Shown piece after piece: positions 2,824 through 63,000 of a DNA stretch of 64,000 nt. Location: positions 310,001-374,000 of the forward strand of contig JALIZF010001729.1 of the NCBI GenBank assembly GCA_029948255.1, given 5' to 3'. The position numbers and the translations under genes are program-made. Origin of the DNA: Telmatactis stephensoni (taxonomy: Eukaryota; Cnidaria; Anthozoa; Actiniaria; Isophelliidae). Numbering within the stretch: position 1 is the first letter of the stretch; every line of letters starts with the position of its first letter. The notes beneath the pieces are model-generated. The model searched no databases, had not been told where the DNA came from, and worked only from the letters and a program-made list of their open reading frames with translations.

Positions 2824-3826
2824 CTAAGCTTGATTTAAAATAGGGCAAAATGTCTGTGTCAAGTTCGACCACTTTAAGTTTGAGAACACAAAATTAATAG
2901 CTTGTCTTTCAACAGCTGTTATTTCTGGATGCCATAAATCTAGAATCAATACAATCCTGTCGCCTTTATTGCCAGTATGCCAGACTTCATGTAAGAAGGA
3001 ATCATCAAATAATAATATTTTGTCCTCCTCCCACATCCGTTCTTCCTGGTCAACAATTATTTTACATCCATCTGGAATCTTTAATGGAATATGACATCTT
3101 ATTCTACAATTTGTAGGGCCATAGTGTGGTGTAATATGTGTTCCTGGTTCAACCAATGAGAATATAGCATTTCCAAAAGCGCAACCTCTCATAAATGCGC
3201 CAATACTTTCCACGAATTCCAGAGTTCTTGGACATGCACTGCAATTCCATTCCACCATTTCGCCTTGGTTAAAGAGGTGATAGACATACCAGCATCCCGT
3301 AGGAGAAGTGTTTCTTATCCAGCCGCGGGAGAGATCCTGGCTTATTTTTGAGACTTCAGTCTTTTATTTCACTAAGTTTCTTTAGAGTCAAAACTTTTTC
3401 CAGTTCAGAAGAGTATATGTGGTGCCATGATTGCGATGAGAGGCCTAGAACACCCAAAGTTGTTGGTCTTTGCCTCACACAGTCTGAGTTCTTATCGCCA
3501 TTAAGCAAGGACTCAAACAAGCGCTCAAGTGACTCGGGTTTAGAGTTCGTCTTTGCGATGAATTCATCTAGTTTATCGAGAAGAACATCCCTTTCCAGGA
3601 TGGAGGACCTACATCGAACGCACTTCGGCGACTTGCACGTGTCACTACTTGACGAGTCTGGATACTGTAAACGCTGCCTCAAGAATCCATTGAATAAGGC
3701 AAGAGAAAAGAAAACCACCACAGCTATAGCTCCATTGATAAGCAAATAGTAAAATATTGTACTTTCTTTGGAAATCGTCCCTAAAGTTCGAGATTCTTCT
3801 AGTGTTACATTGAGTTCTGCCGCCAT
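2824..3826 (-). CDS. ASPHD2: ASPHD2-like aspartate beta-hydroxylase-domain protein, single exon, one-base frameshift
   Basis: The start is ATG 3824-3826 (MAAELN, Kozak-like context); an in-frame ATG at 3860-3862 is an alternative. Residues about 25-46 form a membrane anchor (YYLLINGAIAVVVFFSLALF), so a type II membrane protein is expected. The C-terminal half is the aspartyl/asparaginyl beta-hydroxylase fold: HITPHYGPTN and FLHEVWHTGNKGDRIVLILD carry the predicted iron and 2-oxoglutarate ligands. The upstream frame ends at a stop at 3356-3358, while the hydroxylase frame (TEVSKISQDLSRGW...) is open in the next frame. Skipping one base in the T run at 3362-3365 (AAAA on the coding strand) joins the two halves with no residue lost. 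Joined length is about 333 residues, near vertebrate ASPHD2 (about 370). The break may be a homopolymer sequencing error, a real lesion or +1 frameshifting. A poly(A) signal for this strand lies at 2789-2794. Confidence 0.85.
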
Positions 3827-7804: not shown

Positions 7805-8135
7805 TTTTGCCCCATTCCCCCCATCACTTTTCTAATTGTCCGTCCCTAAGCTTCTGCTAAAAATATTTTCCAAGAGATATTGTAAGATAAGAAGGAGTTA
7901 ATTTACCGAAACCAGGCTTGAAAACGTACACAGATTAATTGCTATGTTGAGTTATGTGACCTTCCAGAATGTCTTCATTGAGTAGGACATAAATGATAGC
8001 CACGGCCCAGAGCGGGAACCTTTATCAGCAGGTAGAGTACGTGAGCACATCTCCCTAAGCCTCTTAATTTGATTATCGAGAATCTCAGCTCGTCAGAACG
8101 CGAATCAGTGACGTGCCGGCAAACAGCAGACTACC
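6420..8135. other. Intergenic, low-complexity patches
   Basis: No gene recognised. An AAGT tetranucleotide run at 6731-6750 followed by ACTTTATTTATAG looks like the 3' tail of a minus-strand retroelement. Poly-T/poly-A runs and an AT dinucleotide tract (about 7776-7802) follow. The last 700 bp should hold the promoter and 5' UTR of the GPCR, but I see no clear TATA box. Confidence 0.4.
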
Positions 8136-9446
8136 ATGATGACTCCATACAACAGTACGTATCACAATAGTTCTTTGCTGAACCGTAACGAACCAATGAA
8201 GCAATTTGTGGAGCCAGAACCTCTCCGTTGCTTTCGATTATTCGTGCTTGCCATCGTAATAGTTGGTTCTCTTGGTGGCAACACCGTGGTAATCAGAGCT
8301 GTAGTGCGAGCCAAAGGAGTTAAGTCAGCCACTTACTTTCTGATTTCTAACTTGGCCTTGGCAGAGATCATCAGCTCGTGTTGCCTCCCCTTTCTGCAAA
8401 GCTATGCGGAGCTACATAGTTGGCCTTTCCCAGAAGCTATGTGCCATCTCGTCAATCCCTTGCAAATGACAGCGGGAATGGTAGTCACCACCTCCATCGC
8501 TTCTATAGCAGTAGTCAGATGCCTTTTCGTGCAGCAAAGCCTGACATTTTATAGAAAGACTTGCTCTAACATCGTTGCTCAAGCAATGGGCGTTGCCATG
8601 TGGATTGCAGCCTTCATCTTTTTCCTCCCATACTTTCTGCACATGACCAAGATCCCTTCGTTCGCAAACGATGGCAAATTCTGGTGTCTGCTTCTGCTAC
8701 CTGGTGATGAGCTTGATGAAAGTTACCCTTCTCCACGTCAAAAAGGATACATCATCGCACAGCTCATTGTCAATTATGTTCTACCCTTAACAATAACACT
8801 AATTTGCTACGCTCTTGTTATCTCCAAATTCAGATCCTACAGGCTAGTGTCCGTTGTACGAAATTTAAAATTCAGCGACACCGAGGTAACACAAACCGAA
8901 GCAACTAGGATGGAAACTGAATCTGGCTGTGAAGTCAAAGACATACGAGATCCCGAGATGCTGACGCCCTCAACGAGTAATTCTGCCCAACGCGTACGTG
9001 TGTCCATCGTGCGAAATAGTAAATTCAGTGATACCGAAGTCACACAAACCGAAGCGACAGGGGTGGAAACTGAATCTGGATGTGACGTACAAGACAAACG
9101 AGATCCTGAGAAGCTAGTGACACACTCAACGGCTGCTGATTCTGCTGCCGAACCTAGATTAGTACTCGTCCAAGATGCTGACGAACTCAAAGAGTACGAG
9201 TCAGACCTGCTGAGAATGTTTTATGCCATCGTTTTAATCTTCGTATTGTGCTACATTCCATATCAGTGTTTCTTTGTGATGGAGTATATAGGCCGTCTGT
9301 CCTGGAACAATTGGAAGTATTTTGATGTTACACGCAGCTATCTATACTTGTTGACGTGCTTTCCCAGTGCTTTGCATCCCATATGCTATGGCGTAATGAG
9401 CAGATTTTACCGCAAGGCCTTCTCCAAGTTAATCCTTTGTAGATAA
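8136..9446 (+). CDS. Intronless rhodopsin-like (class A) GPCR with duplicated ICL3 segment
   Basis: A 436-residue seven-helix receptor. Helices are at about 34-56, 67-88, 103-128, 145-166, 205-230, 359-382 and 400-420. N-glycosylation sequons are N6 and N11; the ECL1/ECL2 disulfide would be C103-C184. Helix 1 has GGN with N49. Family switches are altered: helix 2 LALAE has Glu77 where D2.50 is usual, the DRY triad is V127-R128-C129, CWxP is C372-Y-I-P, and NPxxY is H414-P-I-C-Y418. The third intracellular loop is very long (231-358) and contains a 51-residue unit in tandem (238-288 and 289 to about 332). Overall it looks peptide- or amine-receptor-like; the ligand cannot be assigned. Single-exon class A receptors are common in cnidarians. 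The double Met start is unambiguous because the upstream frame is not open. Confidence 0.9.
   Translation: MMTPYNSTYHNSSLLNRNEPMKQFVEPEPLRCFRLFVLAIVIVGSLGGNTVVIRAVVRAKGVKSATYFLISNLALAEIISSCCLPFLQSYAELHSWPFPEAMCHLVNPLQMTAGMVVTTSIASIAVVRCLFVQQSLTFYRKTCSNIVAQAMGVAMWIAAFIFFLPYFLHMTKIPSFANDGKFWCLLLLPGDELDESYPSPRQKGYIIAQLIVNYVLPLTITLICYALVISKFRSYRLVSVVRNLKFSDTEVTQTEATRMETESGCEVKDIRDPEMLTPSTSNSAQRVRVSIVRNSKFSDTEVTQTEATGVETESGCDVQDKRDPEKLVTHSTAADSAAEPRLVLVQDADELKEYESDLLRMFYAIVLIFVLCYIPYQCFFVMEYIGRLSWNNWKYFDVTRSYLYLLTCFPSALHPICYGVMSRFYRKAFSKLILCR
8847..9130 (+). repeat. Coding tandem duplication, 153-bp period
   Basis: 8847-8999 and 9000 to about 9130 encode related ~50-residue units sharing KFSDTEVTQTEAT, ETESGC and RDPE. 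Copies differ at scattered codons, so it is not a very recent assembly artefact. Confidence 0.85.
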
Positions 9447-14415: not shown

Positions 14416-15585
14416 TTTACTTAGACTTGCACTGAATCTTGTTGTTCATGCGGCTAGTATATGCGACTGAACAGTGAACAGTATGCCAATAAAATCAAAC
14501 TGCCCTGTAATAAAAAGTTGTGATTGCCTAACACCTAATGGTTCCTATTTAAATAAGATATGTACTGAATATGCAGATAACTAGTGTTCGTAAAGCGAGG
14601 TTAAAATTGTATCATTGAATTGATAATTTGTCAATCAGATTATGAATGCAAGAGAAAATGCCTGAGTTTTTCTGTACAACCCGTAATTAAAAGCTGTCCA
14701 CAATAAGTAGGTGCTCATATTAAGTGGGCGTACATAAAGTGGGGTGGTTTCACTGCATATTCTATAGAATTATATGAAAACTCTCTTTGGAATGAGCCTA
14801 TCCTCCTGATCTGCAGGCAACTCATTCCTCGGGCTTCCTGTGGTCCAAGAAAGCTGAGGGAAACTAGAGACTTACCCTCTCCTCAGTCCTCCTCATTCTT
14901 TTACACTTTTTCTACACAGGAAGCCCAGAATACTCTGCTGAGGAAGGCTAGAAACATTACTGGCTACTAGGACACCACAGCAAAATGTACTAGTGTGCAT
15001 GCTCGCCTTGTGAAAACTCCTCCCCAATGAAAAATTCGGTAGTGTAAACAAACAAAGCTTTGCCGGCGAAACTCAAACCACAGAAGAGAAACTCAGTCCT
15101 CAAAAAATTCAGGTTGAGGGCTTTGTAGTGAAATTCTATTGTCTAGTTGGTTCTCCTGTTGTAGATATCGAAGCTGATTATAATTCAAAATTTAACGTGC
15201 TATTCAAAACACAAGTTTGGTGGAAGGAGCTCGAGGGGGGGGGGGGAAGGTTTTTGTCAATAAAAACTTTAAGGGGGTATGCATGATTTTTGGCATTTCA
15301 TATTTGAGGTGGGTACACTTTTGAATTGCAATTTTTCATAATGTTCATTTACCACCACCACCACAGCCCCCTAAATAAATTTGAACAAATAGTTTTCAAG
15401 GCCTAGGAGTAACTCGTGAATTAAATTTAATGAGCCGTGAGCCAGCAATATAAACAATTTTACACGTATATTTTTAATTACCATTCAAATTACACAAAAT
15501 TAGTTCAGTTCAAAAAATATCGTGCAACCAAAATTCCTGCAACCACCCCATCAATTATGTAATGGTTAGTCCCTAACATTGGGCT
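14416..15585. other. Intergenic, repeat fragments only
   Basis: Contains fragments sharing GGGCTTCCTGTGG with repeats near 17779 and 35414 and a G homopolymer at 15236-15246. No gene seen. Confidence 0.35.
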
Positions 15586-17407: not shown

Positions 17408-17989
17408 TATCTGATGAGGTGCATTTTGTAAATACACCTCTGCAACACCCTATAAATGTACTTTATTGATAAATGTAAATCTACTTTATTGATGGATTAG
17501 AAGACCTTAAAGTACATTTAGACAATCATTGCATGCAAGCAACGCCCGATTTAAGCGGTATTTTTGGTTGGCATTAGATATTTGTATATTTGTATAAATG
17601 TATCGGTACCACAACCCCTCTGCAATCGAGTCCGATATATTTCATGAATTTCGATTTTTCTATCAATTCCCGCGTAAGGTCGACACTAAAAATAACTTGT
17701 GAAACGTAACACCAAGGAAAAAAGGGACCTTTACGCGTAAACAGTTTACGATTTAACAATTTTCCATTTTTGAATATTGGGCTTCCTGTGGCAGGAAGGA
17801 GACAAAAAGTCAAGGGGAGGGGAGGAGAGGGGTACACTAGAAATTAACCAAAAACGTAACGTGATCGTGACAGATTGTAACATCGAACCGTAATGATTTG
17901 AATTCTGCTTTATTCTGTATTTCTGCATGTTATAAATTGGATTGTGGCAAGAAAGCTCGTGCAATAATATCTCCAATGGCATACGTCTT

Positions 17990-18331
17990 AATGAGCTTTT
18001 ATCAGGTATATTTAAATTCGTAAAACCGAAAAAGAATTACTATAGCTGGAAAGAGCATGTTAAAATTAGCAAGACAGTGAAGTTTGAAGGAATTAAATCC
18101 AAAACTCGCGAGAATATGAATTTTTGAAAGAAAACCTTGCATCTCTTGCCTACCAGCGAATGTTTTCATATGGCAAAATTTCGATTTCGGAAAATTCATA
18201 TCTTGCTTGGTGAGTTTGAAAGTTACTTCATTCAAACTTCACAGTTTTACTAATTTTGATGTGCTCTTTCAAGCTATGGTAATTATATTTCTGTACTGCG
18301 ACTTTTGGAATTGCATGATAAAAGCTCATTA
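17990..18331. mobile_element. MITE, ATGAGCTTTTATCA family, copy 2 (inverted relative to copy 1)
   Basis: Ends ATGAGCTTTTATCA and TGATAAAAGCTCAT are exact inverses. Internal 'ctatagctggaaagagcatgt' and its inverse lie near each end. Confidence 0.7.
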
Positions 18332-19697
18332 TTAAAAGGAACTCGTAAATTTTCGTGTTGGTTAACGCGGTTTCGTGAATTTGGAAATTTATTGATTCCG
18401 TCCATGAAGGCTGCATTCTGGCAGTCTTCTTTCCTTTGATTCAGGAAAGAAGAGTAAAACTATTTCCTTAAAAATGACTAGAGGCATTGAAGGAATGAAA
18501 CAACCAGAAATCGCAATATTTAATTTCTAAGGTAAAGCTGTTTACTTTTTTTGGTCACGTGATATTTCTTTGAGTATTTGAATTTTGAGTGCATGAAATT
18601 GTACTAAACATAAATTGTACTAAATAGTACTAAATATGACGGAATCCTTTGCTTCTATTGTTTAATTAGTTCTGTTTTGCTCAATTTTGCAAAATTTAGT
18701 TTGTATTGTTTCATGTTTTGTGCCGTGCATGCACCACAAAACTGGCTTAGCCACAAATCATGTAAATTCGATAAGCTCTTAAATACGATTTTTGATGACA
18801 CGTAAACTGAAATGTCATATTAATTTTATTTTGTAATTGTATGTTGCAAAAAATTGTATTTTAGCCGCTTGCGAATTTATGTGATTTATAGCTTATATTG
18901 CAAAACAATGAGCTTGGGCTGCCTGTGGTGCATGCATGATTTGTAGCTTGATGAATGAGCTTGGGCTGCCTGTTAGAAACGTATATATTTTTTCCTGCAA
19001 CCTTTCTAAAGCTACATCTAACAGGCGGCAAGGGGTTTTCCCGTGAAGCCGTGAAGACCCTTTCTAATTGTTCGTAATCTGTGATCAGAGGGAAATAAAA
19101 GCAGTGCGTCAGCCCAACGCCGTAAAACAAAATATAAAAATTAATTTAAAAATTAATTTCCGTGAAACCTTTCTGCCCATTTTTAGAAACTCGTGAACTG
19201 TGCCGAGACCCCCCCCCCCCCCCCCCGCCTTTCCGCCCCTGATCTAAACACGATCAAGTTTCCCTTGACCAGAACCCCTTCCTCGTCCAGTAGAAGACAA
19301 AAAATTGCCAATTTTTCCTTGCTAAGGGAGGCTTTCTTAGTTCAATTGTTCACATCTAATGATTTTCAATTTATATATTCATTTTAATAATCATCTTGAT
19401 ATCTAACTAATTGGGGCGGGATAAAATACAAAACGAATTTGAACCACTAATGAAAAGATTTTCATGAGAAGAAACGGTCTGTTCGAATCCGGCGCAGTGG
19501 TAAACTCGCCGTTTCCGCGGCAAATATAGGAACGACTACAGTAGAATAAATATGCATCAAAACAGAGGGTAGTGAATGCAATATAGTGAAAGGTTACATC
19601 ATAAATAGGCCAAACATCCGGAATTCTCCGAAGTTTAAATCTTCGTTGTCTTACCGTCGTTTCTTCGCACTTTCCGATCTGTCTGAAAGTCACCTGG
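18332..19697. other. Intergenic, nothing recognised
   Basis: AT-rich with a C homopolymer at about 19209-19226 and a twice-used 'gagcttgggctgcctgt' phrase (18910, 18957). A minus-strand open frame at 19403-19780 has no recognisable motif. Confidence 0.35.
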
Positions 19698-19818
19698 CAC
19701 GTGGATGGAAGACATAGTATGAACGTGTATGCTTCAAAACGTGCCAAGTTACGTAATAAATACTTGGTCGTGTGCAGCAATCACGTGCACGTGCCAATTG
19801 GGTACTAGCCCTCACGTG
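19698..19818 (+). promoter_or_regulatory. E-box cluster plus D-box upstream of CIPC-like gene
   Basis: CACGTG occurs at 19698-19703, 19782-19787, 19788-19793 (the last two directly abutting) and 19813-19818. TTACGTAA, the PAR-bZIP D-box consensus, is at 19749-19756. All lie about 260-380 bp upstream of the inferred transcription start near 20080. CACGTG is the canonical CLOCK:BMAL1/CYCLE site. Clock control of this gene is inferred. Confidence 0.6.
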
Positions 19819-20047
19819 CTGGAAGTCCAAAAGCTGTTGTTCGACAGAAACCGAGACATTAAATTCAGTAATGCTGATATTTTTTCTTCAAAATACTAGT
19901 GTTAAGCGTGGGGATTACATTTAAAGAAGAAAGGTAGGCATAACTGAAGAATAATTGTCGTTTGTTTGCTATAAACTACACCTTTCATACCGACTTTTCG
20001 CCAATTTGATTCGAACGATTCTTTCAGAGTCGTGCAGCACGGGCGCG

Positions 20048-20095
20048 TATAAATTTAATTCGTCTCGTTCCTTTTTGGTCATTCAGATTTTATTG
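20048..20095 (+). promoter_or_regulatory. Predicted TATA box and non-coding first exon of CIPC-like gene
   Basis: TATAAATT at 20048-20055 is followed 25-30 bp later by an initiator-like GGTCATTC and then a strong splice donor, GTAAGT, at 20096. I infer a short 5' UTR exon (about 20080-20095) spliced to the acceptor at 21441-21442. Confidence 0.45.
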
Positions 20096-20821
20096 GTAAG
20101 TGGTGATTTTTTTCAATAATGCTGCCTTAGTTTTATGCTTTGTTTTAGAAACATTCTAAATAGATATAAGACTTAAGTGAATGTTGAACTCTGTCTTAAC
20201 TCCGGCACAATAATGACTAAATATTGCGATATTGATATTGAAATGGCGACGGGATGCGTCAAACCTTCGATCTTTAATACATTATGCTCTGCTCGATTTA
20301 GTTCATTTCTTAGTAGCAACCAAAACAACTAAGCGAAAACTTATTTTTGTGATTCTTAATGTTCATCGAGTCTATTTTTAAAGTATATAATAAGAATTAC
20401 ACTAAAAAATAGTTAAGCTTACGTAACTTTAAGTTTTAGGGCTTGTAATCGAGTGAACATCGCAGGGGAAATGCATTCACTCCAAATTTTTCCCAGTTAA
20501 CTCTTTTTAATTTTTGTCTAACGCATTCACAAAAGTTCTATGTGTTCTAAAATTCATTAGATCTGCATTGTCTGAAGTGTTGAATCCAAAAAATAGGCAG
20601 TTGTCAGAGAACTGCATGGGTTCCACTCTAGCCTCGAAAGGAAGAGCTAGCTGTAGTCTAGATCGACTCAACCAGTGGAAGTGCAGTATTTGGCAAAGCT
20701 TTAAAGTGTCGTTTTTATGGGAAAAAATATTTATTAAGTTTGATTCAAATGTACACTGAGCTGTACACTGTAGGAAGTTGTGAAAAGACAATGTAAGCAA
20801 ATCTTGCAGAGATTTCATTTA

Positions 20822-21044
20822 GGGGGTGTTTACATGGCACTAGGATCATCCTAGCGCTAGGATCATCCTACCTGCTATACATTTATTGCATTCGCTTTCG
20901 TAGGATCATCCTAGTAACCGAAGCAAAGACACAAATTTCCATGTAAACAGAATGCAGTAAATGTATACCAGATACATGTAGGATGATTTGCATGCTAGGA
21001 TGATCCTAGTGCTATGATAATCCTAGTGTCATGTAAACACCCCC
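20822..21044. mobile_element. Palindromic MITE (GTTTACATG family), copy 2
   Basis: GGGGGTGTTTACATGGCACT at left and AGTGTCATGTAAACACCCCC at right. TTA is duplicated at 20819-20821 and 21045-21047. It lies in the inferred 5' UTR intron of the CIPC-like gene. Confidence 0.85.
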
Positions 21045-21445
21045 TTAATACAATGTAAGCAGTGAATGGTCGGACACTGTAGGCTATGGTGACACTTATG
21101 TGTGTAATTTTGAAAATCCATCTCTTTTTTTGTTTTTGTTTTTGCCATTTAGACAAAAAATGTTTTATAGTATAGGCAGAAGGCATAGCAAATAACTTTG
21201 CAGAATTTGCAATCCACAAACGTGTAGCTTACCTGGAGAGTGTAGTGAAATTGGCTATAAAGTATGGAACAAAATGTGACGTCAGAGTATTGTTTTTCTT
21301 TTCAGGGTTCCAAAAAAATCAACCTTTCTGGTATATTATAAGTAATTATGGCTTTCTCAAGCCCCATACCAATCCCACAAAAATTGTGAGTAACAATTTG
21401 TTGCAACTTCAACTAATTTTTCCACTTTCATTTTTATTACAGAAT

Positions 21446-22274
21446 ATGTCAGAAGAATTTGCAGACATTGGCCAGGTGATCTAATAAATTAATGATATGT
21501 TAAGTAATTGTAGGGTTCCCCCAAGTGAAAATGTCCTTAGAAGTGTTTTTTCAAGATTTTTTAAAAAATGATTTAAAGTGATTGAAAATGGTGTCTTTGG
21601 GCTTCTATATGCCTAAATAGCAATACCCCTGGTGTTTTTTAGTGATAAACGTCAAGAAAGCCTGAAATTCTTGGCTAGCACCAGTCTTACCTTGCTTGAT
21701 AATTGATAATTTTTGTATGTCACCTTGAAAATAACATGGATGCTATGCTTTAAATATCTAGGCCCCAGTGATAGCATGCCAAAGGAATTTTTCATCAACA
21801 AATGGGCATGTAGACCACCTTGCCGAAACATCAGATGCTGGTATGAATGGCCATACAGATCTTGAACAAGATAATGGTTGGATACAAGTTGATGGATTTC
21901 CCAAAAGTTTCTCAAATGGTAGCTTTCAGAGCAATCATGATACAGCTTCGTCTTCTGGAATCAAAAGACATAAAAACAACCACCATGATCACTTGAAACA
22001 TCATCACAAACAATCCCATCATCGTCATCACAGAAGAACCAGCAATGGAAATTATAAAAAGGCTGAGCAGAAGCGCTTTTGTAGAACAGCTTCAGCTTTG
22101 AAACAGGCTGGTCTACTTGAACTGACACTTCAAACAGCTCAGCTCATCCAAGAAAATGAAACTCTCCAGAAAGAAATAGATTCTCTTCAACAACAAACTT
22201 TGGAGTTTAGTAAGTCCTTACAGGAACAGCTGGAAGAAAAAGTAAAAAGTGCAAAAGCTAATGGATATTCTTAA
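21446..22274 (+). CDS. CIPC: CIPC-like (CLOCK-interacting pacemaker domain) protein
   Basis: Two coding exons: 21446-21475 (ATG after acceptor AG 21441-21442; MSEEFADIGQ, phase 0 donor GTGATC at 21476) and 21762-22274 (acceptor AG 21760-21761; A-P-V-I-A-C-Q..., stop TAA). The product is 180 residues. A His-rich stretch spans about 83-102. The C-terminal 55 residues begin EQKRFCRTASALKQAGLLEL, followed by TLQTAQLIQENETLQKEIDS, a helical segment that matches the conserved C-terminal domain of vertebrate CIPC (pattern RF-x-x-T-x-x-x-L-x-x-x-GLL-x-x-TL-x-T-x-x-L-x-x-x-N). In mammals CIPC binds CLOCK and represses CLOCK:BMAL1. This protein is much shorter than human CIPC (about 400 residues); only the domain is recognisable. 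Function as a clock repressor is inferred. Confidence 0.72.
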
Positions 22275-30800: not shown

Positions 30801-33800
30801 CCTTTCTGAGACAACTTTGGATTCCTCTTTTCTTCTTGATACTTTTCCAAAGTGTCCTCTAGCTAGAATGTGTTCCCATTTCTATAAAATGTGCTCCCTG
30901 TTAAGGATAGTCCTGCATCCACCCCTGTTGCCTTGGAATTTTTAAAATTATTTTTTCTTGTCTTTTCTTTTCTTTTTTCTTTTTTTTCTTTTTTTTTTTC
31001 CATCAGAGATATTGATGTTATTGAATGGCATGAATTTTTAACACCTCAACTACAACTGTCACATCTCTTTACAGCTAAGCCACAGGGAAATGTAAGTATT
31101 TAATTCTTTGAGCCCACAACCCTTGACCCAACCCATCAAGGGTGTGGAAAAGGTCCTGCGCGATCTAGCAATATGCCAAAATTTAGCTTGTAATTTGGAA
31201 AATGGGCTATATTAGCACATGGCTCATGGATTAAAACTACATAGCCAATAAAATTTTACCTTTCTCAGAAAAGTTTGGCTTTAAGTTGAACTGGACCGGG
31301 TTGTTGGGAAAGGCAATCAAATCTAGTACAGGATTAGTTGTGAAGAAAACCACTCATTTTAACAACCTGGTCCAATATACTCTGTACAGTGAGCCTGTAT
31401 CATATATGACAATGTTGAACAGGAGACAGGAATTTAAAGTTGTGTGATCGACATTCTGATCCCCACCCCTCCCTCCATTAGTACATAAATGGTACATGTA
31501 AATCACTGACAGTACTATAGTCACTTTGAAATAACATTTTTTCTGAGCTTATTTATACCTGTCCAAGTTTGACACTAATTAAACCTGTTTGATGTATCTT
31601 TAGGAAAAAACTGGAAGTCCCCTTATCACAGTTCTCAATTCTGATGACCAGAGACAAATTCAAAATATGAGAGACAGGCTTTCAAAGCTTGCACATGTGA
31701 GTATTTTGACCCCGGGGTGGCCTCCTTTGGAAAACTCGGTTGAGTGCCCTCCTTCCACTTAATCAACTGAGTGACATCTTTTCAAATTAAAGTTGTCTTT
31801 GTTGTTTATCTAAAGCATGCAGAAAAGAAAGGCGTAAGGCTAATGATAGATGCAGAACAAACATACTTTCAACCAGCTATCAGAAGGCTAACCATAGATC
31901 TACAAAGGGAGATCAACAAAGACCGACCACTTGTGTTCAACACTTACCAATGCTACTTGAAGGTACGCCCATCCTTTAGAGCTTGTCTAAAGCCGGGTTC
32001 ACACTTACGTCGTAATCGCTAGAAGCTAATGGTCTGAAGTAATACTGAAGTAATGGTCCTTGTAAGAACGACAGCACTTTCTAATGTTCTGTAGCATATC
32101 GCTTTCCTAACATCACAATAATTTTGAGATTTTTCTATTGAGGATGTATCAACCTATGGAGAACACCACAGGTCACCCTGGCCGAGCCATCATTTCCCTG
32201 ATTTCTTAGTAAATCAATGTCAAGCGTTTACATTAGATACTTTACAGGAGTAAAGTGGAAGGGTTACCCTCTTTGCGAAACAGGGTAACTCCACTATCAG
32301 GGACAACTTTTTCCATGCAGTAAATGCTATAACCCTAGAGACAACTTTGGCCCTAGGATATAAGTTAGTTTTTGGTGATCATGCCATTGGAACTCAAACC
32401 GAGAGTTCACCCACGTATAGCAACCAATGATTTTCCCATGTAAACGCTCGGTAAAGTTAGCTCGGGTGGTAGGGTAACCCCTCTATGTAAACAGGCCCTC
32501 AATAAGAAAAGAAGATACGTGCTTCCTTACAAAACGTCTGTAAAATGTGTTAGGTATCAAGCCAGAGTCAACCAGTAAAATTTGTCAGAGTACTGGACAA
32601 AAGTAGTTCGTCTTAGAACGAGTTTTACCCGATTTTCGGTCGAGACCTTTTCTTGGAGACTTAGACAAAACTTCATGCTTTCCCTTATACATGAGTCCTG
32701 TCATGTTCACCCTGACATTAGTTCTTTCCTACCCAGAACTACAGTTATGTCTTGTCGTTCCGGGCTGACACTCGTTCCATGACGAAATCAGCCCGAGATG
32801 AAATCGTCCATGTTGCCCTACCCTTAGAAGTAAATAATTAGAAATGTAATGTACTTGAAATCAGGACGCCCACCGCCAAACCCAAGTTGACATGGAACTT
32901 GCAAGGCGTGAGGACTTCTGCTTTGCGGCTAAACTTGTACGGGGTGCGTACATGGAGCAAGAGCGATTGCGCGCTGCTTCATTTGGCTACAAAGATCCCA
33001 TCCATCCGAGTTATACTGCTACGAGTGAGTGTTTTGATGAAACTCTCAACGCCGTTCTGGAGGAGACAGCACGTGGGCGTGCTAATGTGATGGTGGCGTC
33101 GCATAATGAACACTCCATACAATTTGCTGTGCAAAGGTAATGTGGGTATTCTTGTCATGCCAGATCTTAAATAATCATTTTTGTAAGGGCTTGGGGTCAC
33201 GTGGTTCTCAGTGCAAGTCCCCTATTTTCTACAGAAAGAGCTATTTAGCGAGGATGGCAATGAAGTGTGTAAATGTGGCATAATGCAGATGTTATGTTAA
33301 TTAAGTTCAATCTCTTTGTTATTTCCCAGGATGGAGGAGCTGGGTATTACGACTGATTCAAAACGAGTGTTCTTTGGTCAGCTTCTGGGAATGTCCGACA
33401 ACATCTCGTTTACACTCGGTAAGTAAATCTTGTCCAAGAATTCGTCTCTCCTTGACGCGAAACATCGGCAATTTGTAGGTAGTCGACACAAGTATATGTG
33501 GTCACAGGAATGGAACTCGGGACATCTCCCTCTGGACTCCCCACTAACCAACTTCGCCAAACTTGCTCCTTCATAATCAGTAGCAAACGTAACTCGACAC
33601 AAATCTCTGGCACCCAGTGTATCTTGACTCCTTGTGACGTATTTCCTTATTGTTTCAGGTAAAGAAGGTCACTCGGTCTACAAATACGTCCCATATGGCC
33701 CAGTAGAAGACGTCTTACCCTATCTCTCTAGACGAGCTATGGAAAATAGAGGACTTTTGAAGGGTATTCTAAAGAAAGAGCCTTGCTGTGGGAAGAATTT

Positions 33801-56000: not shown

Positions 56001-59000
56001 ACTTCTGGGCTACATAAGCTAAGAGGAACACATGGTGTATCAATAGTACCAACCTTAGACGCTTTATCTTCCTTTGGTACGTTCTCATTTTTGGCTATGC
56101 AATCAAACTTTGGTCACCACAGTCAGTTGAATTAAAAGCTAGACAGAATTCAAAGACTGACGCGGCCACCAAGTACATGGTGGAATGAGCGACATGTGGC
56201 ATGAGTATCTGGACATGGTGTTCTTCATGAGTGGCAAGTGGCATGAGTATCTGGGCAATCTTCAAGGTTACTCACAATTTGGTCAACTTGAAACCTTCTG
56301 TTCTTCCTGTCGTCAGCACTTCAAGACGAACACGAGCAAAAATCATTCTTTGTCAGCACTTGCAGAATTTGGAACACTTTGGCAGAAGAACTAAACTCTA
56401 ACTATGGATAACCTAAGCATGGATAAACTTCAAATCTGCCATTAATGGCGTATCATACATTGTCACTTTTCAATACGTATAAAGGCCGGCCGTTTAAACG
56501 AATCCCAAGCAACCGTAGACCGAGTGGGGCTTTGTTTCGATAACCTAACAATTTCATTGAACGTGAAAGGTTTTTGGTTTGTTTGCTTGCTTGTCGTTTT
56601 TTTACGCGAAAGTAATGCCAACTTGATGAAAACTCAGCAAAGTTTCAATAAGAAGACACAAGAACTACGCATGCACGCGTCCAAAATTCTTCGATGAAGT
56701 CGTTCAAACGAATCCAACATGTTGTGATGTGGTTGAAATGAAAAGTTTGACCAAATCAAACTTCATCCAACATCGTCCAGCAAGGTGTTCAAATGACCCA
56801 ACATTGTTGGACCAATGTTGGTCCAGCATGACTAGCATGTTTTTATCCGTTTGAACGGGGCTTTATATCTGTGAAGACTCACGGACATTCAATTCTGTAT
56901 GTCTGAAGTGTAATAACTTCAGAAATCGTACTCATACAATTAAATGCTGCATGTAATTTCTTTTTTATATGGGTTCGCAGTAATTGGCTAAAACTGTTGC
57001 GGTTAATCCAGTCATTACTAAATTATACATAATAAAATTTGTTATAGAAAATTTGCTCGTATAAAATTAAAGGGCCATTCACTATACAATTATAATAATT
57101 ATTTGTCTAAGAAAGCTTTCTTTTACAAACCGAAAGAGACAGACTGCATGTATATGTACAAATCTCAAGTTTTTCTCTATAGTTCCTGCACCAGCGCCTG
57201 CGACTAAACCATCAACTACACCACCGCCACCACAAAATACACCACCCCTACTACCACAACCACAACCATTACTACTACTACCACCACCACCACCACCACC
57301 ATCACCAATAACACTACTACCACCACCACCACCACCACCACCACCACCACCACTACCACCACCACCACCACCACCACCACCATTACTACAGCCACCACCA
57401 TCACCCCCTCAACCGCTACCACCGCCACCACCACCTCCACAAACTACACCAATGCCACCACAAACTACACAACCGCCACCACAAGCTACACAGCCACCAC
57501 AAAGAACTACACCACCGCCGCCGTCACAAACTACACCACCGCCATCAAAATCTACAACACCACCATCAAAATCTACAACACCACCATCAAAATCTACAAC
57601 ACCACCATCAAAATCTACAACACCACCTTCACAAACTACACCACCACCATCAAAAACTACTCCACCACCTTCACAAACTACACCACCACCTTCACAAACT
57701 ACACCACCGCCTTCACAAACTACACCACCATCAAAAACTACACCACCGCCTTCACAAACTACACCACCACCACCACAAACAACAACACCGCCTTCACCAT
57801 CTACACCACCACCATGACCTATCAACACCACCACCATGACCATCAACACCACCACCATGACCATCACCACCACCACCATGACCATCACAGCCACCACCAT
57901 GACCATCAACACCACCACCATGACTATCAACACCACCACCATGACCATCAACACCACCACCATGACCATCTACACCACCACCATGCACAAACTACACCAC
58001 CACCATCACAAACTACTCCACCGCCATCAAAAACTACACCACCGCCTTCACAAACTACTCCACCGCCATCAAAAACTACACCACCAACATCACAAACTAC
58101 ACCACCGCCTTCACAAACTACACCACCGCCTTCACAAACTACTCCACCGCCATCACAAACTACACCAGCGCCTTCAACAACTACACCACCACCATCAAAA
58201 TCTACACCACCGCCATCAAAATCTACACCACCACCATGACCATCTAACAACAATAACCCATGACCATCTACACCCACCATTGAACATCTACCACCACCAC
58301 CATCACAAACTACACCACCACCACCACAAACTACACCACCCCAACCACAACAACCATCACCACCACCGCCAACTATACCATCGCCACCAAGAACTACACA
58401 ACTGCCACCACGAACATCACCGTCACCACGAACTACACCAAAGCCACCACGAACTACACGACTGCCACTGCCAACCGGTACATGTAAAATCAAATCTTTA
58501 AAAATGACAGCTAAATATTTAGTGCTGTTTCATTAGTCACTATCTCAGGTTGAATTGTCTAAGAAAGTTTTCTTTCATGAGCAATAAGAGACTGCATATA
58601 TATATGTACAAATTTCAAGTTTTTTCTCTATGGCACCAACTACACCACCACCACCGCCACGGCTAACTATACCATTGCCATTGCCAACTGGTATACATCT
58701 TAAATCAAATATTTAGAAATGACAACCCACATGTTCAGTACTGTTTTATTAGTCACTATTTTAGGCTGAGTTTACTTTCAATCACCAAAAGAGACCGACT
58801 GCATGTATATGTACAAATATCAAGTTTTTTCTATAGCTCCAACTCAAGCACCTCTGACTACACCACCAACTACGCCATTAACGAAACCATCACCTACCCG
58901 ACAACCAAAGCCACTACGAACTACAAAAGCACCAATACCAACTACAAGCCCGCCACCAGGAATTACACGACCAACATCACTACGAACTACACGACCGCCA

Positions 59001-60025
59001 CCACGAACTACGCGACCGCCACCGTCCACTACACCACCACCAACTACACCATCACCGACACCACCAACAACAGCCGCCCAGACGACGGGACCTTCTTCTG
59101 CACTTCCAGCGACGGCAACACCGACTCCGGCACCATCAACAGCACCGTCGTCAACAGCACCATGGTCAACAGCGCAACCATCAACAGCACCACCGTCAAC
59201 GGCACCATCGTCAACAGCACCATGGTCAACAGTACCATCGTCAACAGCACCATCGTCAACAGCACCACCGTCAACAGCACCACCGTCAACGGCACCATCG
59301 TCACCAGCACCATGGTCAACAGCACCATCGTCACCAGCATCACCGTCACCAGCATCACCGTCACCAGCACCATCGTCAACGGCAACGATAACCAGCAGTC
59401 TACCAACTACATCACAAGTTACAACACCAGCTACACAACGAACAAAGCCACCACGAACTACACGAAAGCCACCTCGAACTACACGACCACCACAACGAAC
59501 CACAAGACCACCACCAGGAGCTACTCCATCGCCACCAACCACACCACCGATATCACCAACTACACCACCAATATCACCAACTACACCACCGCCATCACCA
59601 ACTACACGACGACCACCACGAACTACACGACGACCACCACAAACTACACGACGACCACCACGAACTACACGACCACCACCACGAACTACACGAACTATAA
59701 GACCACCACGAACCACACCACCGCCACTACGTACCACACGACCAACACAACCACGAACTTCACCGCCAACCGGTACATGCTCAATAAAATCTTTAAAAAT
59801 GACAGCTAATTAATTAGCACTGTTTTATTAGTCACTGTCTTATCACGTCTACATCTACATTATTGTGTAAGTAGAAACTATTTACAGTTATCACACTAAC
59901 TTAAAATATGTAATAATAGATTAAATAATTGTGATAAAAAATACTTATAAAAATTTAAAATTCGCATAAAAATATATAAATGCAAAAAATAAATATATCA
60001 ATTAATAAATAGATAGATAGATAGA

Positions 60026-60084
<59 letters not shown>

Positions 60085-63000
60085 ACAAATAAATAAAATA
60101 AATAAACAATAAATTATACAAATACCAAATCTTGATCTCTAAAATACTTCGACAACTTAGTTTTAAAAATCTAAAAAAAAATACCAGGAGGTAAACTATT
60201 CCACTCATTAATTGTTCTAAAAATTAAAAATCTTAGATTGAGTTGTCTAAGAACGTTTTCCTCCACATATCGATAGAGATAGACTGTATGTTTATGTACA
60301 AATCTTATTTTTCTATAGCTGCTACACAAGCACCTTCGACTACACCACCAACTACACCATCGACCCCATCAACTACACCAGCGCCACCACGAACTACACC
60401 ACCGCCACCACGAACTACACAACCACCACCACGAACTACACCACCGCCACCACGAACTACACCGCCACCACCCACTACACCACCGCCACCACCCACTACA
60501 CCACCGCCATCACCAACTCCACCACCGCCATCACCAACTCCACCACCGCCATCACCAACTCCACCACCGCCATCACCAACTACACCACCGCCATCACCAA
60601 GTACACCACCGCCACCAACCACACCACCACCGACACCACCAACAACAGCCGCTGCGACGACGGGACCTTCTTCTGCACTTCCAGCGACGGCAACACCGAC
60701 CCCTGCACCGTCAACAGCACCTTCGTCAACAGCACCGTCATCAACAGCACCACCGTCAACAGCAAGCCCAACGGCAGCAATAACAAGCCCTGTACCTTCA
60801 CCTACAAAGCAAGGTTAGAATACTCGTTTTTCACGTTGTGGGTTTAATCTACACTCATCTTGTTACATTACTCTGTGGGGGAGGGGATGCCAAAATGCCT
60901 ACTATATGTATATAGGTTCAAAGCACGCAAGAAAACTTGAAGCCAGGACAGACTTTTCTTGCAACATTTTCATGCAGACCAATGCGCGACAGAGTTACAT
61001 CGTGTGTCTAACCCTGGAACAGTTATAGGTTTAGGATTGAGTTCTACTCCCGCAACGTTTTCTGCAACGTTCCACGCAACATTGTAGTGATGGACACACG
61101 GTGCAACTGTGTTGCACGCAATATTGCAGGGGTGAACGTACAGTGCAACTGTAGTGCACACAATATTGCATCAAAAATGTTGATGAGTGAACACACGGTG
61201 CAACTGTTACATGCAATGTTGCATAAAACGTTGTATCATTTGTCTGGGCCTCGAGTGTTATAGGAGAATTATCCTATTTCATTATGACGTCACGGCTTGT
61301 TCACGATGGAAACAGAATCCTATAGAACACAGGAATTTGAAGAGTTGTCAAATAAACAGTATTTATTGCATTTGATGGCTGTTACCACTTTTCTTCGTTC
61401 TACAAACTGCATTTTTATATCAATTTTCTTTGTGTTGCTGCTGAGTTGCCCCCGTTACGACCAAGATTCTCAAAGTTTTTACTATAGATTGTTTTGATGT
61501 GACGTCATACTAAAATAGGACAATTAAGTTCATTACGGCGCGAGTACTTCTCAAAGCTTCTCGAGTCCTCGGTTTAATTAGCGTGACTGCTCTAAAACTG
61601 CACAAAGTACAACAGCGGAAGCCTTTTGTATCTCTTTCATAAAGTGCATTTAAGGCAAACTTATAACCTTCCATTTTGCAGTATCAGAAAAAAGTGAATG
61701 TGAATAAATATCTGTGTGCGCACGCGTGCATTGTGTTTTAATAGAGCATACGGCACATGACCAATCACCAATCGACCATTTGACCAATCACAATCACTTT
61801 CACATGCGGATGCAAAAAATATTTTTTTTAAAAATTATAAACGAACAATATAAATAACTAAGGGTTGACTTAATATTGTCCTGAAAGATACTGAAGCTGA
61901 TCTTTATCCTGATCGTTTTTTATGTATCGATATAGTTTGTAAAGCGAAAGTGGATCTAGGCTTCTTGATTGATGGTTCAGGAAGTATTGAGGCCCAAGGA
62001 ACTGGCAACTTTAGAAAAGTGAAAAACTTTGTCAAAGCCATGGTCAACGAGTTCGAAGTTTCACAACAAGGCACCCACATTGGAGTTGTTCTCTTTGACC
62101 ACCGAGCATCGGTTATCTTTGGCTTTGACAAGTTTTCTGACAAGAAAATTATCAACAGGGAGATTGATCGTATTAGATATCCCAGAGGAGGTACCATGAC
62201 TGGGCGTGCTCTTAGAATGGCAAATACTGGCCTGTACAAGGCAAGCTCAAGGAATGGCATACCTAAAATACTTATCGTCCTAACTGATGGACGGTCAAAA
62301 GACAAGATCGGCGGTCCTGCTCAACAGCTTCGTGATCTTGGCGTGACTATTTATGCAGTTGGAATTGGAAGAGCCTACAATGCAAGAGAATTGAACGAAA
62401 TGGCTACAGACCCAGATTCTGATCATGTTTTTACTGCCGGTTTTAATGAGTTGAAAGACATTGTTCAGGCCATTAAAGATAAAGCTTGTCAAGGTATGAG
62501 ACAGATGCATCTCTAATGGAATATTGCTTGAATCGGGCATTGCTTGCATGCAGTGATTGCCAAAATATAGTTTTAGTCCTTCTTAATCTCGAGGTATCAA
62601 AACAGTATATTTTGGGTGTTGTGAGCACTTATTTACAAATTGCATCTCATTAGAATAAATCGGATATTTGTATAAATATATACTACACCTTTTCTGCAAT
62701 CGGCTGTGTAAGTATATATATGAGTATGTGCACACTAATATAACTGGGGCCGGTTGAACGAGGGGTGAATAGCGCTATCCAGCGGTTAAATCCTTATCCA
62801 GCGGATAAAATCTATACAAAATCTATACGTGGATAACTCTTATCCGGTGGATAACTTTATCCAACCTTCGTACAACCGGGCCCAGGTGTACATATACTTA
62901 GGTATATCACTTTGAGAATAAGTGGTAACTGATCGTTTGATTCCAGGTGCTGGAGGAGTAACGGCTCCAACAACAGGAACAGGTAAATCTGTACTTTTAT

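Follow-up and report, generated by a model that had tools for sequence, protein, structure and literature searches.

The genome of the sea anemone Telmatactis stephensoni carries a single gene of the CIPC family whose promoter holds a dense cluster of CACGTG E-boxes; CLOCK is encoded in the same genome, as is an exon of BMAL/CYCLE type. In mammals, CIPC acts as a brake on the circadian clock. The CIPC gene lies within a 64,000-nucleotide stretch of contig JALIZF010001729.1 (the window), and positions below are those of the window unless a genome locus is named. We consider it probable that the CACGTG cluster would give this one gene a CLOCK:CYCLE-driven rhythm and that the CIPC helix, acting on CLOCK, would form a negative loop independent of PER.

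The 180-residue product claimed in the original prediction is present at the expected coordinates, encoded on the plus strand by two coding exons (21446-21475 joined to 21762-22274) with the stop at 22274. The coding part of exon 2 (21446-21475, plus strand, acceptor ending at about 21442) supplies MSEEFADIGQ and is linked via GT-AG sites to the open frame 21762-22271; exon 3 (21762-22274, plus strand) supplies residues 11-180 and the stop, with a histidine-rich middle followed by the CIPC core at about residues 113-166. Alignment of the N-terminus, MSEE...GQAPV, with MSEE...GKAPV in the Exaiptasia protein supports both the start and the splice of this model. Further upstream, TATAAA at 20048 precedes a presumed initiator and a presumed non-coding exon 1 (20048-20095, plus strand); the TCA initiator near 20080-20086 and the GTAAGT donor at 20095/20096 were both read by eye, and the start site is a predicted one. 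Intron 1 contains an inverted-repeat element (20805-21061; 66-nt arms, 85% complementary, 125 nt spacer) resembling a small non-autonomous DNA transposon.

Few stop-to-stop frames of 90 aa or more lie just upstream of the gene, 15014-15283, 17749-18036, 18864-19145 and 19406-19780 being among them; a divergent gene may share the promoter. Elsewhere the window holds a minus-strand aspartyl/asparaginyl beta-hydroxylase exon (2827-3363, 1.8e-46), a rhodopsin-family receptor within a single open frame (8112-9443, 7.9e-33), and a proline dehydrogenase exon downstream of CIPC on the same, plus strand (32859-33137; PF01619, 5.2e-22). Long repetitive open frames rich in Pro and Thr, with a VWA domain after them (57071-62513; PF00092, 4.9e-43), perhaps encode one mucin-like extracellular protein.

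Membership of the product in the CIPC family is firm. The HMM search bore out the predicted CIPC domain, with the Pfam CiPC profile (PF15800) scoring 52.1 bits, nearly twice its curated cut-off of 27 (E 1.2e-13, profile positions 220-330 of 338), and the genomic exon alone scoring 50.4 bits. The whole 483.5-Mb genome gave one CiPC match, indicating a single copy. Profile positions 1-219, the N-terminal two thirds, found no match in the 180-aa protein; membership stands because the Pfam cut-off does not require them, and the Nematostella (profile 190-331) and Exaiptasia (251-331) proteins likewise lack the N-terminal part of PF15800. A single-sequence search retrieved 7 of 112 candidates, Exaiptasia and Nematostella included, and all seven carry PF15800. 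The profile built from those seven found 9 of the 8000 scored, the additions being one unnamed protein and a prawn protein called Cipc, and a cnidarian-crustacean profile then found 28 of the 7999 scored (27 with PF15800), including decapod CLOCK-interacting pacemaker proteins. This last profile also reaches P0029 and P0030, judged to be vertebrate-type CIPC because of their Pfam CiPC E-values (1.7e-61 and 2.1e-60), and profile-profile comparison of the cnidarian set with these two proteins gave E 5.9e-7 at a probability of 92.

Searching 177,635 distinct PDB sequences returned one significant match, the CIPC chain of 5vji and 5vjx (E-values of 6.1e-6 and 1.1e-6), with 18 of 47 positions identical and 33 of 47 similar (positive BLOSUM62) in a gap-free alignment. 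The partner chain in both entries is CLOCK exon 19. An exon 19 dimer of CLOCK pairs with one CIPC helix, and the 24 CLOCK and 12 CIPC chains that the entries hold are consistent with this arrangement. AlphaFold2 modeling of the main exon with 10 sequences predicted one helix over exon residues 97-115 and another over 118-166, with pLDDT values of 89-98 over blocks 101-160 (overall mean 65.7) and no regular structure up to exon residue 96. The protein is predicted to be mostly disordered apart from its conserved C-terminal helix, and alignment and model both indicate that the CLOCK-binding helix of 5vji/5vjx is probably present in the cnidarian protein.

Other cnidarian CIPC-like genes (Nematostella 245026/NVE4116, Exaiptasia, Acropora, Euphyllia) have the same short, histidine-rich layout. 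Seven relatives of 149-219 aa, with histidine-rich stretches seen by eye in the alignment, are identical to this protein at 37 to 45 of the 47 core positions; the Nematostella protein, at 219 aa, exceeds it in length and resembles it less closely (48% overall). Vertebrate CIPC (PF15800; 5vji, 5vjx) is about 400 aa long, and P0029, at 415 aa, looks to be of that type. It has the CLOCK-binding helix in common with the anemone protein, gap-free at the 18 of 47 identities given above, and differs from it in the remainder, the anemone protein having about 180 aa, a histidine-rich middle and nothing to match profile positions 1-219. The original prediction had called the short length and histidine-rich middle unlike vertebrate CIPC, and that difference is real, but it is no peculiarity of this gene, being ordinary among cnidarians. 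Crustacean Cipc proteins (P0008, P0010, P0012 and P0016, named Cipc or CLOCK-interacting pacemaker in databases) share the core pattern RF.RTA..L...GLL..T..TA.L and have a longer tail after it, and P0008 lacks the histidine-rich middle. One Exaiptasia diaphana protein, P0003, carries PF15800 although its source record gives the name 'polycomb group protein Pc', and searches by name would therefore overlook it. Two short histidine-rich CIPC proteins, P0022 and P0023, have a core, TATVLRHSGLLKLTLQIAQL, unlike that of the anthozoan set and come perhaps from another cnidarian class.

In the promoter, four CACGTG sites (two of them abutting) and TTACGTAA were found where they had been predicted, with TATAAA at 20048. 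The E-box cluster (19698-19818, no strand assigned) spans 121 bp upstream of the TATA box, with CACGTG at 19698, 19782, 19788 and 19813, the second and third directly abutting, and with E'-box-like AACGTG sites between them at 19722 and 19738. Three spans about the cluster were each put through 2000 dinucleotide shuffles; no shuffle contained four CACGTG, the largest number reached being 3. The window as a whole is rich in CACGTG (19 observed, 8.1 expected), and the E-box block has only two other matches inside it, of 18 and 21 bases. Genome-wide, there are 634 places with CACGTG triples whose gaps do not exceed 30, compared with 204 in a reversed control; minisatellites are numerous among the matches listed, and many of the listed triples are supplied by arrays like that at G000:C3:1450512-1451298, which has a unit of about 29 bp and one CACGTG per unit. 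The abutting E-box pair is not supported as an enriched signal, as CACGTGCACGTG occurs 61 times and its reversed control 97 times.

We also expressed CACGTG as a share of all E-boxes (CANNTG), roughly as in a study of Nematostella that gave 15.9% for pacemaker candidates vs 6.8% for non-rhythmic genes (PMC11093582). Of the 14 E-boxes within 5 kb upstream of the CIPC ATG, 5 were CACGTG, compared with 19 of 272 window-wide and 2 of 19 over the 4,544 bases that precede the CLOCK gene of the same genome. The frequency of CACGTG near the predicted start site exceeds chance, as it would at a CLOCK:CYCLE target, and the E-box density of the CIPC promoter is supported as unusual. The D-box fared less well: TTACGTAA, a D-box-like (PAR-bZIP) site at 19749-19756 (no strand assigned), occurs 4 times in the window vs 1.3 expected, and because 4 of 100 shuffles reach that count the site alone means little and was dropped as independent evidence.

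A CLOCK orthologue was identified at C107 with an open frame of 622 codons, its best PDB match being mammalian CLOCK (8.8e-65) and the next BMAL1 (6.1e-37). Residues 481-514 of this frame align gap-free with mouse exon 19, at a weak 10.4 bits with 11 of 33 positions identical in the block counted; positions 4-49 of the mouse sequence used match 5vji_A. When the tail (residues 381-622) was shuffled 2000 times, 1890 versions had a reportable score and none scored as high; 2000 shuffles restricted to the helix-rich stretch produced one score as high, and reversed sequences gave 3.4 and 5.8 bits, against 10.4 and 11.5 forward. The segment ranked first among all frames of the 9-kb CLOCK locus (E 0.012, with the next at E 3), and a PDB search with it returned no chain at E up to 10. 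These comparisons are suggestive of a segment in the CLOCK tail that resembles exon 19, the docking site of CIPC.

A PAS exon at C99 matched BMAL1 at 6.8e-17 and ARNT at 6.7e-16. By similarity it is likely to belong to CYCLE, an identity that is not proven because ARNT follows BMAL1 so closely. Mouse CLOCK also matched another bHLH-PAS gene, with identical scores at G000:C7:223987-239595 and G000:C492:92974-108996. The bHLH exon of this gene has BMAL1 as its closest match (2.6e-13), and the two copies may represent the two haplotypes of a single gene.

CIPC was first described, in the title of Zhao 2007, as a protein without invertebrate homologues. A 2025 review still says so (PMC12285964). 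In 2015, however, a homologue of CIPC whose expression peaks at night was reported from Nematostella and from Acropora larvae, together with named urchin and mollusc sequences (PMC4476465), and a fly orthologue is also known (PMC11078541). The original prediction's claim of novelty for an invertebrate or cnidarian CIPC is not upheld, since such genes have been in print since 2015 (PMC4476465) and the loop has been drawn (PMC11078541), and the gene described here is another cnidarian member rather than the first. In later work, Cipc is rhythmic in Nematostella (PMC10188108), in Euphyllia (PMC9481131), and in Acropora tenuis both in light/dark and in constant dark, and for A. tenuis the authors propose it to be a core clock gene (PMC11271600). 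The Nematostella rhythm is lost in constant dark (PMC11078541, PMC11093582), a condition in which candidate pacemaker genes of that species are arrhythmic, and NvCipc transcript is lower in an NvClk mutant (PMC11093582). These observations were made by others, on relatives of the present animal. A 2010 paper described E-boxes in front of NvClock and NvCry1a (PMC2943474), CIPC has been drawn as a predicted repressor (PMC7222589), and a commentary draws a feedback loop of E-box, CLOCK and CIPC (PMC11078541). In the literature searched, which included few subscription papers, we found no base-level account of the E-box cluster of this gene, no account of the exon-19-like CLOCK tail and no paper joining exon 19, CLOCK and Nematostella; among papers joining CIPC, exon 19 and CLOCK, none was by title on cnidarians.

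In the most likely mechanism, CLOCK:CYCLE bound at the E-box cluster would drive rhythmic Cipc transcription, the conserved C-terminal CIPC helix would pack against the CLOCK coiled coil that resembles exon 19, and docked CIPC would damp CLOCK:CYCLE output, closing a negative loop without PER. Binding of CIPC to CLOCK and repression of CLOCK:CYCLE are extrapolated from the mammalian complex, and CLOCK:CYCLE would be the factor that uses these four E-boxes. This mechanism is plausible and has already been proposed by others. The ancient negative-feedback arm of the original prediction keeps its CIPC family member and its dense E-box promoter, loses its novelty, and has CLOCK binding and repression as presumed steps. 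Points against the loop are the weak exon-19 match, the commonness of CACGTG triples, the narrow lead of BMAL1 over ARNT, the loss of the Nematostella Cipc rhythm in constant dark and the unmatched profile positions 1-219, to which a mouse knock-out adds another: by the title of the reference only, loss of mouse Cipc reportedly alters Per1 and not circadian rhythms.

That knock-out title would also fit a different account, which we regard as unlikely while giving it real weight, in which the protein is CIPC by descent, has a main role other than clock repression (for example as a general transcription co-factor), and is controlled through E-boxes that serve MITF/TFEB, USF, MYC or HES/HEY. CACGTG is bound by bHLH factors of several families, and the protein matches the Pfam profile only over its C-terminal third, although this third is the very part crystallised with CLOCK. 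CLOCK binding and circadian function of the Nematostella protein were called unknown in 2015 by Oren and co-authors, who nevertheless proposed that it binds CLOCK (PMC4476465). Daily cycling in relatives and the dependence of NvCipc on NvClk speak against a non-clock role, as does the enrichment of CACGTG in Nematostella pacemaker candidates and not in other rhythmic genes (PMC11093582).

Far less probable still is an unrelated histidine-rich protein with a chance coiled coil. Other coiled-coil families do match weakly, the best being Sec66 with E 0.052, below its cut-off, while the Pfam CiPC score is almost double the curated threshold. The RF.RTA..L...GLL..T..TA.L pattern lies partly N-terminal of the long coil and recurs in prawn Cipc, which argues against chance, and so do the reach of the cnidarian-crustacean profile to P0029/P0030 and the profile-profile result. 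This account was rejected on the Pfam score, the match to 5vji/5vjx and the profile links to P0029/P0030.

The presence of CIPC in cnidarians is not itself news. What the T. stephensoni genome offers for the clock loop is a small, directly testable module: a CACGTG cluster, a CIPC that is little beyond its CLOCK-binding helix, and a candidate docking segment on CLOCK. With the putative CIPC helix and the exon-19-like CLOCK segment in one genome, we tentatively suggest, as a possibility that we would not yet favor, that a CIPC-on-CLOCK brake fed by the CACGTG cluster in the Cipc promoter could be the ancestral cnidarian-bilaterian negative arm, and that it may be the chief repressor in PER-less cnidarians.
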